From: Candidatus Kapaibacterium thiocyanatum
GTDB taxonomy: Bacteria > Bacteroidota > Ignavibacteria > Kapaibacteriales > Kapaibacteriaceae
Direction: 5' to 3'
NCBI GenBank assembly: GCA_001899175.1
Contig: MKVH01000024.1
Coordinates: 620,001-684,000 of the forward strand
Length of the DNA: 64,000 bases
The notes under the pieces are model-generated. The model was not told where the DNA came from and made no database searches. It was given only the letters and a program-made list of their open reading frames with translations. The position numbers and the translations under genes are program-made. Below are positions 1,512-12,034 of this stretch, in pieces (position 1 is the first letter of the stretch; the number at the start of each line of letters is the position of its first letter).

Positions 1512-2801
1512 ATGAATTCGACGAACATCTACGTCGGGCTCGACATCGGTACCACGAAGGTGTGTGCCGTCGTCGCCGCGTCCGACCCGGTGACGCGGCG
1601 TACCGACATCCTCGGTACGGGGATGTCGGAGTGTGAAGGATTGAAGCGGGGCGTCGTCACCAACATCAACAAGACCGCCGAAGCGATCCGCAAGGCCGTC
1701 GAAAAGGCCGAACAGCAATCCGGTATCAGCATCAGGCGTGTCGTCATCGGCATCGCGGGTGACCATATCTCGTCGTTCATCACACGCGGTATCGTCACGA
1801 TCTCGTCGCCCACGCGCGAGATCAGCGGGGCTGACGTCAGGCGTCTGCTCGACGATGTCCGCAAGGTGAAGATCGACGGCGACCGGCGCATCCTGCACGT
1901 GATACCGCAGGACTTCATCATCGACGGACAGGACGGCATCACCGATCCGGTGGGAATGAGCGGCATCCGTCTCGAGGCGAACGTCCTCGTCATCACTGGA
2001 TCCCTCACGGCCATCGAGAACATGTATCGCTGTGCCGAGCGCGCGGGGCTGACGGTCGATTCCATCGTCCTGCAACCCCTGGCGAGTGCCTGTGCCGTGC
2101 TCGACGAAGCGGAGAAGGAACTCGGCGTCGCCATCATCGACATCGGTGGCGGCACCACCGACATCGCCATCTTCAAGAACAGCATCATCCGGTCGACGTC
2201 GATCTTCGGCATCGCCGGACAGAAAGTAACCGACGATATCATGGCCGTCCTCGGCATCCGTCAGGTCGAAGCCGAGCGTATCAAGCTCGAATTCGGTCAC
2301 GCGCTGAGCGACAGCATCAATCGCGACGAAGTGTTTCAGGTTCCCGGGGTAGGAGGACGCACGCCGACGGAAGTGACGAAGAGCGTGCTCTGCCAGATCA
2401 TCGAACCGCGCATGGAAGAAATCTTCGAGTTCTCCCTCCAGGAAATCATGAAGTCCGGTCTGGCCCATCAACTGGCCGCCGGTATCGTGATCACGGGAGG
2501 ATGTTCGCTGGTACGTGGTGCTGATCAACTCGCGCAGCGGGTCTTCCGCTTCCCGGTCAAGATCGGTATCCCCACGGGATTCAGCGTGGACGGTCTGGCA
2601 CGCGAGGTGAGCAATCCGATGTACAGCACGGCTGTAGGATTGATCCTGTATGCGGCGCAGCAGGCACAGGAACACGAAGCCGAGTCTGTTCCTGTGACCA
2701 AGGAAACCCAACAAGACGAGGCAGTAACCGCGGAACCGCTCGTACCGGAGGAGAAGGCCGGTGTGGTGGACCGCCTCAAACGATGGTTCGAAAATCTATG
2801 A
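1512..2801 (+). CDS. ftsA: Cell division protein FtsA
   Basis: 429-residue actin-fold ATPase that anchors FtsZ to the inner membrane. The phosphate-1 loop GLDIGTTKVCAVV is near residue 9, the phosphate-2 loop AIIDIGGGTTDIAIF near 208, and the adenosine motif IVITGGCSLVRGA near 330. The C-terminus ends in a short basic amphipathic helix (VVDRLKRWFENL), the membrane-targeting sequence typical of FtsA, after an acidic linker. The gene starts seven bases after ftsQ and its stop lies 33 bases before the ftsZ start, so the three genes are probably cotranscribed. Nothing is truncated. Confidence 0.97.
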   Translation: MNSTNIYVGLDIGTTKVCAVVAASDPVTRRTDILGTGMSECEGLKRGVVTNINKTAEAIRKAVEKAEQQSGISIRRVVIGIAGDHISSFITRGIVTISSPTREISGADVRRLLDDVRKVKIDGDRRILHVIPQDFIIDGQDGITDPVGMSGIRLEANVLVITGSLTAIENMYRCAERAGLTVDSIVLQPLASACAVLDEAEKELGVAIIDIGGGTTDIAIFKNSIIRSTSIFGIAGQKVTDDIMAVLGIRQVEAERIKLEFGHALSDSINRDEVFQVPGVGGRTPTEVTKSVLCQIIEPRMEEIFEFSLQEIMKSGLAHQLAAGIVITGGCSLVRGADQLAQRVFRFPVKIGIPTGFSVDGLAREVSNPMYSTAVGLILYAAQQAQEHEAESVPVTKETQQDEAVTAEPLVPEEKAGVVDRLKRWFENL

Positions 2802-2834
2802 TGTCCAATGTTTCCGTATTCCTTGGGGGGAAGT

Positions 2835-4190
2835 ATGGCAATTGAGCTGGATACCACGCAGACCTACGATGCGCGGATCCGGGTTGTGGGAGTCGGCGGC
2901 GGCGGCGGTAATGCCGTACGCACGATGATTACCCGCGGCCTGGAAGGCGTCGAATTCGTAGCGGCGAATACCGACCACCAGGCACTGATGAACAATCCGG
3001 CCGGAATCAAGATCCAGCTTGGAAAGAGCGTCACACGTGGCCTCGGTGCGGGCGCCAATCCCGATAAGGGACGCCAGGCCGTTGAGGAAAGCATCGACGA
3101 TGTGCGCGATGCTCTCGACGGCAGCGACATGATCTTCGTGACGGCAGGCATGGGCGGCGGGACGGGAACCGGAGCAGCACCGGTGATCGCCAAGGTCGGC
3201 CGTGAACTGGGGGCCCTCGTCGTGGGCATCGTCACGAAGCCGTTCTCGTACGAATCGCGCCGCCGCATGCAGATCGCCGAGCAGGGGATCAAGGAATTGC
3301 GCGAACACGTCGATGCACTCATCGTCATTCCGAATCAGCGCATCCTGACGATCGTCGACAAGAACACGTCCTTCATCGAAGCGCTCGCCAAGGTCGACGC
3401 AGTTCTCTACAATGCCACGAAGGGCATTTCCGACATCATCTCCGGTGTCGGCTACGTGAACGTCGACTTCGCCGATGTCCGCACGGTCATGGCCAACATG
3501 GGCGATGCCCTGATGGGTATCGGTATGGCACGCGGCGAACACCGCGCACTCGAAGCAGCAACGAGTGCCCTCAATTCGCCGATCCTCGAAGGCATGTCCA
3601 TCAGCGGGTCACAGGGGCTGCTCGTCAACGTCACGGGCGGTCTGAGCATGACGATGCACGAAGTGAGCGAAGCCGTCTCCATCATCGAGAAGGCCGCAGG
3701 AGACGACGTCAACCTCATTCACGGCGTCGTCGTGGATGAAGGTATGGACGACGAGATCGCCATCACCGTCGTCGCGACGGGCTTCCGTCGTGCCGAGGAT
3801 ATGAAGGCTACCAAGCCGGCCATCACGATCATCAAGGCGGAGCCCGCAGCAGAACAGCAAGCTCCCGTACAACAACAGCAACAATCCGCTCCCGCACCGG
3901 AACCGGCCGCCTATCGTCCGGCCGCTGTCGAAACGAGGTCTCAGCCCGCTCCCGCTGCACCTACGCCGAGCGGTTCGCGTCAACTGCAGGAGTTCGACAC
4001 ACCCGCCGTATGGCGTAACCGTCCTGCACCGCAGTCGGGCGGACAGTCGACCGCAACCGGAGGTACACCTGGAAGCATTCCCGTGACGCCGAACGCGACG
4101 GGCGAAGCCTATACGCCGAGCGTACGTCGTGCCGCAGGTAGCGGTGGCGATAGCGACGCTCCCGCCTTCCTCCGCCGGATCATGGACTGA
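2835..4190 (+). CDS. ftsZ: Cell division protein FtsZ
   Basis: Tubulin-like GTPase that polymerises into the Z-ring. I chose the ATG at 2835 because GGGGGG lies five bases upstream (2825-2830) and the protein then begins MAIELDTTQ; an in-frame ATG at 2808 lacks a good ribosome site. The nucleotide-binding motif GGGTGTGAAP is near residues 105-115, and RILTIVDKNTSF and the T7-loop region follow. After about residue 330 comes a long Gln/Pro/Ala-rich linker, then the conserved C-terminal peptide APAFLRRIMD, which binds FtsA and other partners. Length is 451 residues, longer than E. coli FtsZ because of the linker. A hairpin follows the stop. Confidence 0.98.
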   Translation: MAIELDTTQTYDARIRVVGVGGGGGNAVRTMITRGLEGVEFVAANTDHQALMNNPAGIKIQLGKSVTRGLGAGANPDKGRQAVEESIDDVRDALDGSDMIFVTAGMGGGTGTGAAPVIAKVGRELGALVVGIVTKPFSYESRRRMQIAEQGIKELREHVDALIVIPNQRILTIVDKNTSFIEALAKVDAVLYNATKGISDIISGVGYVNVDFADVRTVMANMGDALMGIGMARGEHRALEAATSALNSPILEGMSISGSQGLLVNVTGGLSMTMHEVSEAVSIIEKAAGDDVNLIHGVVVDEGMDDEIAITVVATGFRRAEDMKATKPAITIIKAEPAAEQQAPVQQQQQSAPAPEPAAYRPAAVETRSQPAPAAPTPSGSRQLQEFDTPAVWRNRPAPQSGGQSTATGGTPGSIPVTPNATGEAYTPSVRRAAGSGGDSDAPAFLRRIMD

Positions 4191-6315: not shown

Positions 6316-6353
6316 TGTTCACCATGTCTGTGACTGAATGCTGCGGATGGTGC

Positions 6354-6361
6354 CAAAGATA
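6354..6361 (-). promoter_or_regulatory. -7 promoter element (TATCTTTG) for the MFS gene
   Basis: CAAAGATA on the + strand reads TATCTTTG on the minus strand, a full match to the Bacteroidota -7 element TAnnTTTG, 38 bases before the MFS start. An identical element for speB faces the other way at 6378-6385. Confidence 0.55.
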
Positions 6362-6377
6362 CAAGCCGTGCCGACAC

Positions 6378-6385
6378 TATCTTTG
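6378..6385 (+). promoter_or_regulatory. -7 promoter element (TATCTTTG) for speB-dapD
   Basis: TATCTTTG, identical to the element on the other strand 16 bases away, 45 bases upstream of the speB ATG. The two form a compact divergent promoter pair. No clear -33 TTTG is seen. Confidence 0.5.
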
Positions 6386-6430
6386 CGCTTACCGGACGAC
6401 AACGACGTTGTACACCATCCATCACGAATC

Positions 6431-7333
6431 ATGAAGACTCTCGGCCCGACGAAGAACTTCCTGGCCATCGACGAGCGCTATTCCGCGCTCGAATCATCCG
6501 CTATCGCCATCGTGTCGGCTCCATACGAACATACCGTGAGTTACGGCGGAGGTGCAGCCAAAGGACCGAAGGCGATCGTCGACGCGAGTGCCTACGTGGA
6601 ATTCTACGACGACGAATTCGACCGCGAGCTGTGCTTCGACAAGGGCATCGCCACGCTCAAGCCGCTGCGCTTCGGCAAGGCCGTCGACAGGGATGCTCTC
6701 GACATCATCGAAGAGCAGGTGGATGCCCTGATCGACATGGACAAGTTCGTGGTGACGCTCGGTGGCGAGCATACGATTTCGACGGCTCCCATCGCCGCCC
6801 ACTTCCGGAAGTATTCGAAGATGAGCGTCCTGCATTTCGATGCCCACTCCGATCTCCGCCAGGAGTATCAGGGATCGCCGTATTCGCACGCCTCCTTCAT
6901 GGCACGTGTGGCCGAGTTCTTCCCGACGAAGCGCATCAGCCAGGTCGGCATCCGTGCACAGTGTATCGAGGAAGCACGGTTCATCAAGGAGAAGGGCATC
7001 AATACATTCTATGCCTCGGCCATCCGTCGCGGCCTCCACGGCAAGGCATGGCAGAAGAGCGTCGTGGACACGCTCGCGAAGGATGTCTATGTGACGTTCG
7101 ACGTCGACTGTTTCGATCCCGCCATCATGCCGTCGACGGGCACCCCGGAGCCGGACGGTCTGCTCTATAGCGAAACCATCGACGTGCTTCGTGAAGTCGT
7201 GAAGAGCGGGCGCCGCGTCGTCGGCTTCGACGTCGTCGAACTCGCACCTGTCAAGAACGTATCTCATACCGATCTGACGACCGCACGACTCATCTACAAG
7301 ATGCTCAACATCGCTTTCTCGAAAGGAAGATGA
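6431..7333 (+). CDS. speB: Agmatinase (ureohydrolase family)
   Basis: 300 residues. Ureohydrolase metal motifs are all present: [21 protein letters not shown] and [21 protein letters not shown]; the His and Asp residues bind the two Mn ions. These proteins hydrolyse agmatine to putrescine and urea; the length and the GTPEPDGL segment fit agmatinase better than arginase, but a related guanidino substrate is possible. I chose the ATG at 6431 ([11 protein letters not shown]) because the upstream in-frame extension overlaps the promoter element at 6378-6385. dapD follows after two bases, so both are likely cotranscribed. Confidence 0.88.
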
Positions 7334-7335
7334 TC

Positions 7336-8178
7336 ATGAACGACCTCGAGAGCAGGGTGGAAGCGCTGGCAGCACTGCCGGCACATGAAATCCAGTACGA
7401 CCGCGGCACGACGGAAACGCTGCAGCACTTCGTTCAGGGATTGAACGACGGTACCATCCGGAGCGCATCGCCCCAGGACGACGGATCGTGGCAGGTGAAT
7501 CAGTGGGTGAAACGCGGTATCCTCGTCCTGTTCCGCAAGGGACGTCTCATCGACGTATCGACCGACGAGAACTTCCAGTTCTTCGACAAGGACAGTCTGC
7601 CGACGCGTATGCTGACGCTGGCCGATAACGTTCGCGTCGTTCCCGGCGGCTCGACGATCCGGAATGGAGCGTTCCTCGGTCATGGCGTCATCTGCATGCC
7701 GCCCATGTACATCAACATCGGCGCCTATGTGGACGAAGGAACGATGGTCGACTCGCACGCCCTGGTAGGAACCTGCGCCCAGATCGGCAAGCGTGTCCAT
7801 CTCAGTGCCGCATCGCAGATCGGCGGCGTACTCGAGCCCGCAGGCGCCCGGCCCGTCATCGTCGAGGACGACGTCATGATCGGCGGCAACTGCGGTGTCT
7901 ACGAAGGTGTCCTCATCCGCAGTCGTGCAGTGCTGGGCAGCGGCGTCATCCTCAATGCCAGCACGCCGGTCTACGATCTCGTCAACCAGACCATCCTGCG
8001 CAGCACTGCCGAGCAGCCGCTCGAAATACCAAGGGGAGCCGTCGTCGTCGCGGGGTCGAGGGCGGTGACGTCGGACTTCGGGCGCGCGCACGGGCTCTCC
8101 ATCAGCACACCGATGATCGTCAAGTACCGCGACGAGAAGACCGACGCGAAGACGGCTCTGGAAGCCGCCCTGAGGTAG
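7336..8178 (+). CDS. dapD: 2,3,4,5-tetrahydropyridine-2,6-dicarboxylate N-succinyltransferase
   Basis: About 280 residues of left-handed beta-helix acyltransferase. The first 90 residues are helical. Hexapeptide repeats then run from [20 protein letters not shown] through [39 protein letters not shown] to [18 protein letters not shown]. The enzyme transfers succinyl from succinyl-CoA in the lysine/diaminopimelate pathway, supplying peptidoglycan. ATG at 7336 is preferred: AAGGA sits eight bases upstream, whereas the ATG at 7330 abuts it. The gene starts two bases after the speB stop. Confidence 0.93.
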
Positions 8179-8229: not shown

Positions 8230-8259
8230 TTGCGTATCTGGATCGAATCCCTATCTTCG
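8230..8259 (+). promoter_or_regulatory. Putative promoter of the met operon (TTG ... TATCTTCG)
   Basis: TTG at 8230-8232, a 19-base spacer, then TATCTTCG at 8252-8259, close to the Bacteroidota pattern TTTG-N19/20-TAnnTTTG. The leader-peptide ATG is at 8270, ten bases after the element, so the transcript would be leaderless or nearly so. Confidence 0.5.
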
Positions 8260-8269
8260 CACTCCGACA

Positions 8270-8371
8270 ATGAACACGACGCTTCGCCATACCACCCCTT
8301 CCAATCACGTCGCCCCGATGATGTGTTGGTCTATGATGATGCCCATGCATCATAAGGGGACTGGCGTCTAG
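8270..8371 (+). CDS. Methionine-rich leader peptide of the metY-metX-hom operon
   Basis: A 33-codon frame from ATG 8270 to TAG 8369-8371. The C-terminal third reads APMMCWSMMMPMHH: six internal Met codons within ten codons (8318, 8321, 8333, 8336, 8339, 8345), far above chance in a GC-rich sequence. It sits just upstream of an intrinsic terminator and of three genes for methionine synthesis. This is the layout of trpL- or hisL-type leader peptides, where ribosome stalling on the scarce amino acid controls the terminator. No Shine-Dalgarno sequence is seen; the promoter element lies ten bases upstream. One Cys codon (8324) sits among the Met codons. Confidence 0.75.
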   Translation: MNTTLRHTTPSNHVAPMMCWSMMMPMHHKGTGV

Positions 8372-8431
8372 CGAACCAACTACGAGCAGCTATCTACAAC
8401 GCCACTCTCCTTCCGGGGGGTGGCGTTTTTT
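8285..8431 (+). promoter_or_regulatory. Transcription attenuator with alternative hairpins (methionine)
   Basis: Four segments can pair in turn. Segment 1 (8285-8300) has CGCCA and CCCCTT, which pair with TGGCG and AAGGGG of segment 2 (8354-8367). Segment 2 also pairs with segment 3 (8399-8412) at 13 of 14 positions, with only 8361:8405 mismatched (C-C) and one G-T. Segments 3 and 4 form the terminator. A ribosome stalled on the Met codons at 8318-8345 would cover the gap between 1 and 2 and favour 2:3 (read-through). One reaching the stop at 8369 would cover segment 2 and free 3:4 (termination). Hand-folded, not energy-computed. A small hairpin, ATGATGC/GCATCAT (8336-8353), lies over the Met codons. 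Confidence 0.7.
8398..8431 (+). terminator. Intrinsic terminator of the met attenuator
   Basis: A 13-bp stem (8398-8410 with 8415-8427, two G-T pairs, loop TTCC) runs directly into six Ts (8426-8431). It is 27 bases past the leader-peptide stop and 76 bases before metY, so it must be bypassed for the operon to be expressed. Confidence 0.88.
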
Positions 8432-8482: not shown

Positions 8483-10845
<2,363 letters not shown>

Positions 10846-10852
10846 TCACCAC

Positions 10853-12034
10853 ATGGCAACTTCCGCTCTCAATCTCGGTCTCTTCGGTTTCGGCTGCGTC
10901 GGCCAGGGACTGTACGACGTCCTGCACCGCACGCCCGGCCTGCAGGCACGCATTACACGCATCTGCGTGAAGGATCGCTCCAAGCAGCGCCCGGTCATCG
11001 CCGAAGCGTTCACGTTCGATCGCGACGATATCCTGAACGACGATGACGTCAATGTCGTGGTCGAACTCATCGACGATGCCGATGCGGCCTTCGACATCGT
11101 GTCGACGGCACTCCGCCGCGGCAAGGCCGTCGTGACGGCCAACAAGAAGATGGTCGCGACGCGGTTCCACGAACTGCTGGCCCTGCAACGCGAGACGGGT
11201 GCCCCCTTGCTCTACGAAGCTTCGTGCTGTGGCAGTATTCCCATCATCCGCAACCTCGAGGAGTACTACGACAACGATCTGCTCGACGGGGTGCAGGGGA
11301 TCGTGAACGGTACGACGAACTTCATCCTTACGCGGGTGATGGCCAGTGGCGATGCGCGATACGGTGAAGTCCTGGCCGAAGCGCAGCGTCTGGGATTCGC
11401 GGAAAGCGATCCGACGCTCGATGTGGAAGGATACGATGCGTCATTCAAGACGCTGATCATCGCAGCCCATGCCTTCGGTGTCGTGCTCGAGCCGGGTGAC
11501 GTCATCCGCCGCGGTATCACCAGCGTCACATCCTTCGATGCGGCCACCGCACGCGCACGCGGTGCGACCATCAAGCTCGTGTCGAACAACGTTCTCGTGG
11601 ACAACAAGCTCACGTCCTTCGTGCTGCCTCGCTTCGTTCCCGAATCGACTACGTTGGCGAAAGTCGACGACGAATACAACGCGGTCCTTCTGCACGGTGC
11701 GTTCAGCGACGCACAGTCGTTCATCGGCAAGGGGGCGGGTGGGCATCCTACGGCATCGGCTGTCCTGTCGGACATCGCCGCACTGCGGTACAACTATCGG
11801 TACGAGTACAAGAAACTGGAACAGGGACGTGCGCCGCAGTTCACGACGGACGTCCCTGTCAGGGTATATGCTCGTTCTTCGGACGAGAAGCTGCTCCGGA
11901 CCATTCCGTGGTCGGAGATCGATGTCGACTATCGTGGCCGGAGCGACCACTACGTGATGGGGACGACGACCTTGTCGGCCTTGCGCGACAGCGAAGCCTT
12001 CCGGTCGGATCGAGCCTTCATCGCCCTCCTGTAA
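10853..12034 (+). CDS. hom: Homoserine dehydrogenase
   Basis: 393 residues. N-terminal Rossmann fold (LGLFGFGCVGQGLYDVL), then VVTANKKMVATRF, the substrate-domain EASCCGSIPIIRNL, GIVNGTTNFILTRV and AEAQRLGFAESDPTLDVEGYDASFK with the conserved Glu/Asp/Lys set. No clear C-terminal ACT domain is visible, so direct feedback by threonine or methionine is not obvious; the attenuator may carry more of the control. It reduces aspartate semialdehyde to homoserine, feeding MetX. It begins seven bases after metX and completes a three-gene homoserine-to-homocysteine operon. Confidence 0.94.
   Translation: MATSALNLGLFGFGCVGQGLYDVLHRTPGLQARITRICVKDRSKQRPVIAEAFTFDRDDILNDDDVNVVVELIDDADAAFDIVSTALRRGKAVVTANKKMVATRFHELLALQRETGAPLLYEASCCGSIPIIRNLEEYYDNDLLDGVQGIVNGTTNFILTRVMASGDARYGEVLAEAQRLGFAESDPTLDVEGYDASFKTLIIAAHAFGVVLEPGDVIRRGITSVTSFDAATARARGATIKLVSNNVLVDNKLTSFVLPRFVPESTTLAKVDDEYNAVLLHGAFSDAQSFIGKGAGGHPTASAVLSDIAALRYNYRYEYKKLEQGRAPQFTTDVPVRVYARSSDEKLLRTIPWSEIDVDYRGRSDHYVMGTTTLSALRDSEAFRSDRAFIALL

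Follow-up and report, generated by a model that had tools for sequence, protein, structure and literature searches.

A putative methionine- and cysteine-codon attenuator upstream of metY-metX-hom in Candidatus Kapaibacterium thiocyanatum and related Bacteroidota

The window, a stretch of 64,000 nt from the genome of Candidatus Kapaibacterium thiocyanatum, carries the methionine genes metY, metX, and hom behind a short leader ORF and an intrinsic terminator (Table 1). The sequence-only reading had described a 33-codon frame with six Met codons within ten codons, and the ORF reads so, with internal ATG codons at 8318, 8321, 8333, 8336, 8339, and 8345 and one Cys codon at 8324. This cluster ends seven codons ahead of the stop codon. 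Further upstream, the agmatinase and dapD genes (6338–8178) on the same strand end 91 nt ahead of the leader ORF.

Table 1. Coordinates of the leader elements and genes in the window.
Feature	Position	Strand	Details
Promoter-like site, Bacteroidota-type	8230-8259	+	TTG 8230-8232, 19 nt, TATCTTCG 8252-8259
Leader peptide ORF	8270-8371	+	33 codons, MNTTLRHTTPSNHVAPMMCWSMMMPMHHKGTGV (then stop)
Segment 1	8285-8300	+	pairs with segment 2 (8285-8289:8362-8366 and 8295-8300:8354-8359)
Sensing cluster	8318-8347	+	six Met codons and Cys codon 8324
Segment 2, antiterminator strand	8354-8367	+	between last Met codon and stop codon
Segment 3, terminator 5' arm	8398-8410	+	
Segment 4	8415-8431	+	terminator 3' arm 8415-8427 and T run to 8431
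metY, O-acetylhomoserine sulfhydrylase	8507-9808	+	TIGR01326, 664 bits, above cut-off
metX, homoserine O-acetyltransferase	9805-10845	+	NF001209 above cut-off; TIGR01392 380 bits, below its cut-off
hom, homoserine dehydrogenase	10853-12034	+	NF004976 above cut-off

Promoters of Bacteroidota follow the consensus TTTG-N19-TAnnTTTG, and in the promoter-like site of the window the -7-like TATCTTCG has its 3' end 10 nt ahead of the leader ATG, at the distance noted earlier. A transcript from this site would start at the leader ATG or a few bases before it, giving a near-leaderless mRNA. A TANNTTCG or TANNTTTG element was seen by eye 4–10 nt 5' of the leader start in 12 leader–terminator units of the same family, so the earlier proposal of a leaderless message also fits the relatives.

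The terminator (8398–8427) consists of 13 bp (8398–8410:8415–8427), a 4-nt loop, and a T tail. Its stem is as long as first described, and the gap from the stop codon measures 26 nt rather than 27. On recomputation, segment 2 pairs with 8399–8412 at 13 of 14 positions, exactly as claimed, and this 2:3 pairing and the 3:4 pairing of the terminator exclude each other. The proposed pairing of segment 1 with segment 2 is present in the minimum-energy fold of the window leader (p about 0.03 versus shuffles), and the 181-nt leader region is more stable than 200 of 200 dinucleotide shuffles (z = -4.2). Partial transcripts were folded on the assumption that the ribosome masks 12 nt past the A-site codon. 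With a stall at 8318, 8333, or 8339 and the RNA ending at 8413, the antiterminator forms, the free part having -19 to -27 kcal/mol; with a stall at the last Met codon (8345), it is only partly free, and with the ribosome on the stop codon, the terminator forms in place of the antiterminator. After synthesis of all four segments, the terminator beats the antiterminator at equilibrium even when the ribosome is stalled (-28.5 versus -21.1 kcal/mol), so the switch must be kinetic, depending on the order of folding, as in trp.

Control of metY-metX-hom by ribosome-mediated transcription attenuation is considered highly probable. The transcript, nearly leaderless, would open with a short frame that carries a series of Met codons, joined by Cys, in its middle part. 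As long as charged Met-tRNA, and probably also charged Cys-tRNA, is in good supply, the ribosome would reach the stop codon at 8369 and cover segment 2, whereupon the terminator would form and transcription would stop. When charged tRNA is short, the ribosome would stall within 8318–8341 and leave segment 2 free. Segment 2 would then capture the 5' arm of the terminator ahead of synthesis of the 3' arm, and the polymerase would continue into the methionine genes. On a transcript carrying no ribosome, segment 1 would hold segment 2 and the terminator would form, as it does in the window folds. Translation of the leader, stalling by tRNA shortage, and read-through under starvation are the steps that we infer here from sequence. 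A shortage of Met also lowers the charging of initiator tRNA, which should cut translation of the leader itself and counts against an attenuator of this kind.

Upstream of metY, ORFs rich in Met and Cys recur more often than by chance. The scan covered 91 loci of the same class, each with 300 nt or more of sequence ahead of metY, and looked within the 600 nt before the gene for short ORFs in which six or more of twelve codons specify Met or Cys. Such an ORF was found on the coding strand at 31 of the 91 loci, versus one on the other strand and zero or one in each of five shuffles; a wider search over 80 named loci gave 24 versus none on the other strand, with zero or one in shuffles. Among 190 residue pairs, Met plus Cys had the largest excess (31 versus 1 in 93 loci), followed by Met plus Asn (25 versus 0). 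The residue-pair test took all 93 loci, including L015 and L028, whose short upstream sequences put them outside the 91-locus scan. The metY set excluded loci L008–L010 (truncated metY) and L179 (61 bases), and L014 (contig end, wrong offset) and G280 (no upstream sequence) were dropped.

Candidate Met/Cys leaders also occur outside the class, at L093, L099, L101, and L081, in MAGs labelled Balneolaceae, Acidimicrobiia, Saprospiraceae, and Gemmatimonadetes, and the first three have a terminator 22–31 nt after the stop codon. In other Bacteroidota, among them Mucilaginibacter, Hymenobacter, Lewinella, Bernardetia, and Pontibacter, metY is preceded by ORFs whose stop codon directly follows, or lies close to, a run of Cys codons (L038, L041, L044, L045, L062, L070, L074, L077, L084, L097, and L107). 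The terminator scan caught no terminator at these Cys-run ORFs, and a SAM-I riboswitch lies further upstream of the ORF in all six of these loci that were scanned with Rfam (L038, L041, L045, L062, L070, and L077). The Cys-run ORFs resemble the poly-Cys leaders of Actinobacteria and are perhaps Rho-dependent.

A total of 36 leader–terminator units were collected from 17 genera and seven families, comprising 32 from 27 class loci and four more from the family of the window; units of one family are kin, and the 36 are thus not 36 independent events. Selection admitted a terminator 15–40 nt after the stop codon (10–44 nt for the four added units), and leaders with no terminator at 15–40 nt, such as those of L032, L119, L131, and L137 and the second leaders of L019 and L140, were not counted. 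All units share one order: Met/Cys cluster, segment complementary to the terminator 5' arm, stop codon, and terminator. The last Met/Cys codon lies 1–17 nt (median 10) ahead of the 2:3 duplex, and the terminator 20–37 nt (median 25) after the stop codon, in units selected with a limit on that distance. The duplex in turn stands at a median of 2 nt ahead of the stop codon (-9 to 23).

The 2:3 duplex has a median of -15.8 kcal/mol and beats both an N-terminal decoy (mean -3.8) and a spacer decoy (mean -1.8) in 36 of 36 units. Against shuffled segments, it reaches p < 0.05 in 32 of the 36 and fails in four; the earlier set of 32 units had given 28. Terminator arms pair better with the segment of their own unit (mean -15.7) than with those of other families (-9.8; 32 units). 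The 1:2 stem, which had been put forward as part of the device, is significant versus shuffles in 10 of 36 units and not in the remaining 26, and it is therefore not a universal part. To our knowledge, a 1:2 protector hairpin is also absent from some known attenuators.

The sequence-only reading had proposed a comparison of the same region in related genomes. There, the Met codons, the frame, the terminator, and the 2:3 pairing recur, and the 2:3 stem covaries; among the loci viewed, no family genome was noticed that keeps the terminator and has lost the Met codons. Among 23 family genomes, MetX (counted at E 1e-40 or better) is present in 13, and 12 of these 13 have a leader–terminator unit, that of G005 having been found by eye in the sequence after the automatic scan had missed it. 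The thirteenth genome, G001, has a SAM-I/IV match upstream of a diverged metY. In G002, G011, and G012, the metY start that follows the leader lies at the end of a contig, and metX is on another contig. In G003 (of the same genus as the window), G005, and G013, the unit lies directly before metX with no metY match at E 1e-100. The loci with a leader ahead of metX in genomes lacking such a metY match are L275, L276, L277 (minus strand), and L284, with two ORFs in between at L275.

A whole-region alignment of nine family units with hand-set ends aligned poorly, and covariation was tested on the 10-nt cores of 12 family units (10 distinct) instead. The 3:4 stem was paired in 100% of cells, with double-sided changes at three pairs. 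The 2:3 stem had 90% of its cells paired and double-sided changes in 5 of its 10 pairs, in a test that leans towards a 2:3 structure because the register was chosen by best pairing. Its covariation score and percentage paired were reached by none of 500 shuffles, and its weak measures, double-changed pairs and pair types, by 16 and 498 of 500. Six of the 12 family units beat mononucleotide shuffles on the 10-nt cores (p < 0.05), and the longer-duplex shuffle test over the 36 units is the stronger of the two.

The mechanism put forward by the sequence-only reading is supported by the units, their 2:3 pairing, and its covariation, with the correction that Cys stands beside Met in the sensing cluster of 33 of the 36 units. 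The 12-codon windows hold 189 Met versus 92 Cys, and the Cys codons are divided between TGT (55) and TGC (37), which speaks for selection on the residue. The device may thus sense sulfur amino-acid status through Cys as much as Met, a refinement rather than an exclusive rival of the attenuator, and one towards which we lean slightly. Besides the share of Cys codons, this fits a unit in G040 (L231; cluster near 1500) upstream of a gene for a sulfate ABC transporter substrate-binding protein (1931–3001), which extends the device beyond methionine synthesis. It also fits the unit of G016 (L275), which precedes two ORFs, the second with DUF6691 and Sulf_transp domains, and then metX, with no metY match at E 1e-100. 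Against equal weight for Cys stand the window leader itself, with six Met and one Cys, and three f18 clusters lacking Cys.

No upstream ORF with at least six Met/Cys in twelve codons was found at 12 metH-type and 12 MTHFR-type family loci (S-methyltransferase-domain and MTHFR-domain loci, from 23 genomes each, with metH of the genome that holds the window included and its MTHFR gene left out). Some ORFs with four or five Met/Cys at these loci run in alternative frames of coding sequence and seem fortuitous. Matches to a Met/Cys DNA pattern outside the units, in the 23 family and 294 class genomes, were likewise set aside, since most of those viewed fell in coding sequence or in frames of no relation.

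Peptide stretches rich in Met, Cys, and His can bind copper, and the ORF might accordingly encode a genuine small protein rich in Met and Cys, such as a metal-binding peptide, next to an unrelated terminator. This is extremely unlikely, as the leader peptide matched no Pfam family, and the peptides of different families share by eye little beyond their Met/Cys content. Moreover, their C-terminal codons hold the complement of the terminator arm at a fixed spacing, and units retrieved by their sequence pattern, irrespective of position, likewise precede metY, metX, or the gene of a sulfate-binding protein. The same antiterminator and stalled ribosome would serve a nascent-peptide sensor like TnaC, which would bind SAM or free Met in the exit tunnel. 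Such a sensor is very unlikely, since the peptides show many Met/Cys orders and no common motif beyond composition, and stalling in times of plenty would activate the genes, the opposite of what an end product should do.

The other control to be weighed at this position is a riboswitch. SAM-I or SAM-I/IV matches lie on the metY strand upstream of metY in 56 of 92 class loci (Rfam scan), that is, in 7 of the 27 loci with a unit versus 49 of the 65 others (Fisher p = 1.5e-5, kinship uncorrected). The SAM-I riboswitch (S-box, RF00162) thus occupies the same position before the same gene in many relatives, and this frequency at loci without a unit is what would favor SAM-I, SAM-I/IV, another known aptamer, or a T-box within the leader of the window. 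The probability of this is nonetheless close to negligible: Rfam gave no match of any kind, riboswitch and T-box included, at gathering score over the whole window, and RF00162 gave none in the genome at E 1e-3 (105 of 180 first-look candidates scored). The two devices also differ in what they read, the SAM-I aptamer sensing SAM. By the locus counts above, the device largely replaces the SAM-I riboswitch at metY. Among the 23 family genomes, eight have a SAM-I match at E 1e-3, three of them above gathering score, and G003, G012, G016, and G019, among these eight, also carry a unit, so that the exchange is shown for the metY leader rather than for whole genomes.

Leader and riboswitch may also be combined. 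In all seven loci with both, the order is leader, terminator, SAM-I, and metY. Units can be doubled as well: two tandem counted units precede metY in L017, L020, L152, L155, and L156, and the Melioribacter MAG L088 has two tandem leaders and two terminators before metY. In L019, L131, and L140, two leaders precede metY, and the scan did not catch every terminator. A leader in L020, which belongs to the same class, is identical to a leader of L088.

The trp, his, thr, and leu leader-peptide attenuators of Proteobacteria work by ribosome-mediated transcription attenuation. Common to these and to the present device are a short ORF with codons for the end product, an antiterminator overlapping the terminator 5' arm, a stop codon that lets the finishing ribosome mask the antiterminator, and, in the window, a 1:2 protector stem. 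Unlike them, the present device has Met and Cys as its residues and a seemingly leaderless mRNA, is found in Bacteroidota, and can be doubled or precede a SAM-I riboswitch.

A comparable leader in the literature is metL of Streptomyces lividans, a leaderless Met/Cys-containing leader (MSTTSDRTPATEATTTPGARCMCRRMCAF) before metNIQ, which is described as a proposed attenuator in the relevant passages of PMC8079986. It shares with the present device a leaderless Met/Cys-containing leader peptide ahead of a methionine gene cluster. However, it precedes a transporter, its authors found no typical Rho-independent terminator and left termination unclear, and those passages contain no comparative test (PMC8079986). 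The actinobacterial cys operons have poly-cysteine leaders, leaderless in mycobacteria (PMC1262725; Canestrari 2020 as cited in PMC9031893). The passages of the comparative study of Actinobacteria report that the Cys leaders lack conserved terminators and that no RNA structure is conserved upstream of methionine operons (PMC1262725). As far as these sources go, such leaders also have sulfur amino-acid codons, but their Cys run stands near the stop with no conserved terminator hairpin, whereas the window cluster lies seven codons before the stop and is followed by a terminator. In Bacteroides thetaiotaomicron, the passages of a transcriptome study mention short ORFs that resemble the leader peptides of attenuators and lie within long 5' UTRs, with methionine unnamed (PMC7366714). 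The earlier remark concerned well-characterised Met leader-peptide attenuators in Bacteroidota-like bacteria, and among the matches listed no paper on such an attenuator in Bacteroidota appeared, which is weak evidence, as preprints and most subscription papers were not covered; a Met leader peptide had, however, been proposed before in S. lividans.

In textbooks, methionine genes are controlled by MetJ, SAM riboswitches, or T-boxes, and leader-peptide control, long known for tryptophan and histidine, is hardly documented for methionine. As far as the literature search reaches, three features of the putative attenuator appear to be new, namely its Met (plus Cys) specificity with a full terminator and antiterminator, its occurrence across a class of Bacteroidota, and the way in which it is exchanged for or combined with SAM-I before metY. 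It seems plausible, and just on the probable side, that it is a widespread sulfur-amino-acid attenuator in which one codon run reads the charging of both Met-tRNA and Cys-tRNA, and which controls synthesis as well as sulfate or sulfur uptake, has replaced SAM-I before metY in several lineages, and elsewhere precedes SAM-I. If true, transcription through leader and SAM-I in series would pass only when Met/Cys charging and SAM are both low. These loci would provide natural examples of leader-peptide and riboswitch control exchanged or combined before the same gene, and would show the classical attenuator layout in Bacteroidota. A conserved Met/Cys attenuator would also fill a gap among the amino acids sensed by ribosome stalling, and it raises the question of how a lack of methionine can be sensed through translation when methionine also starts every protein.
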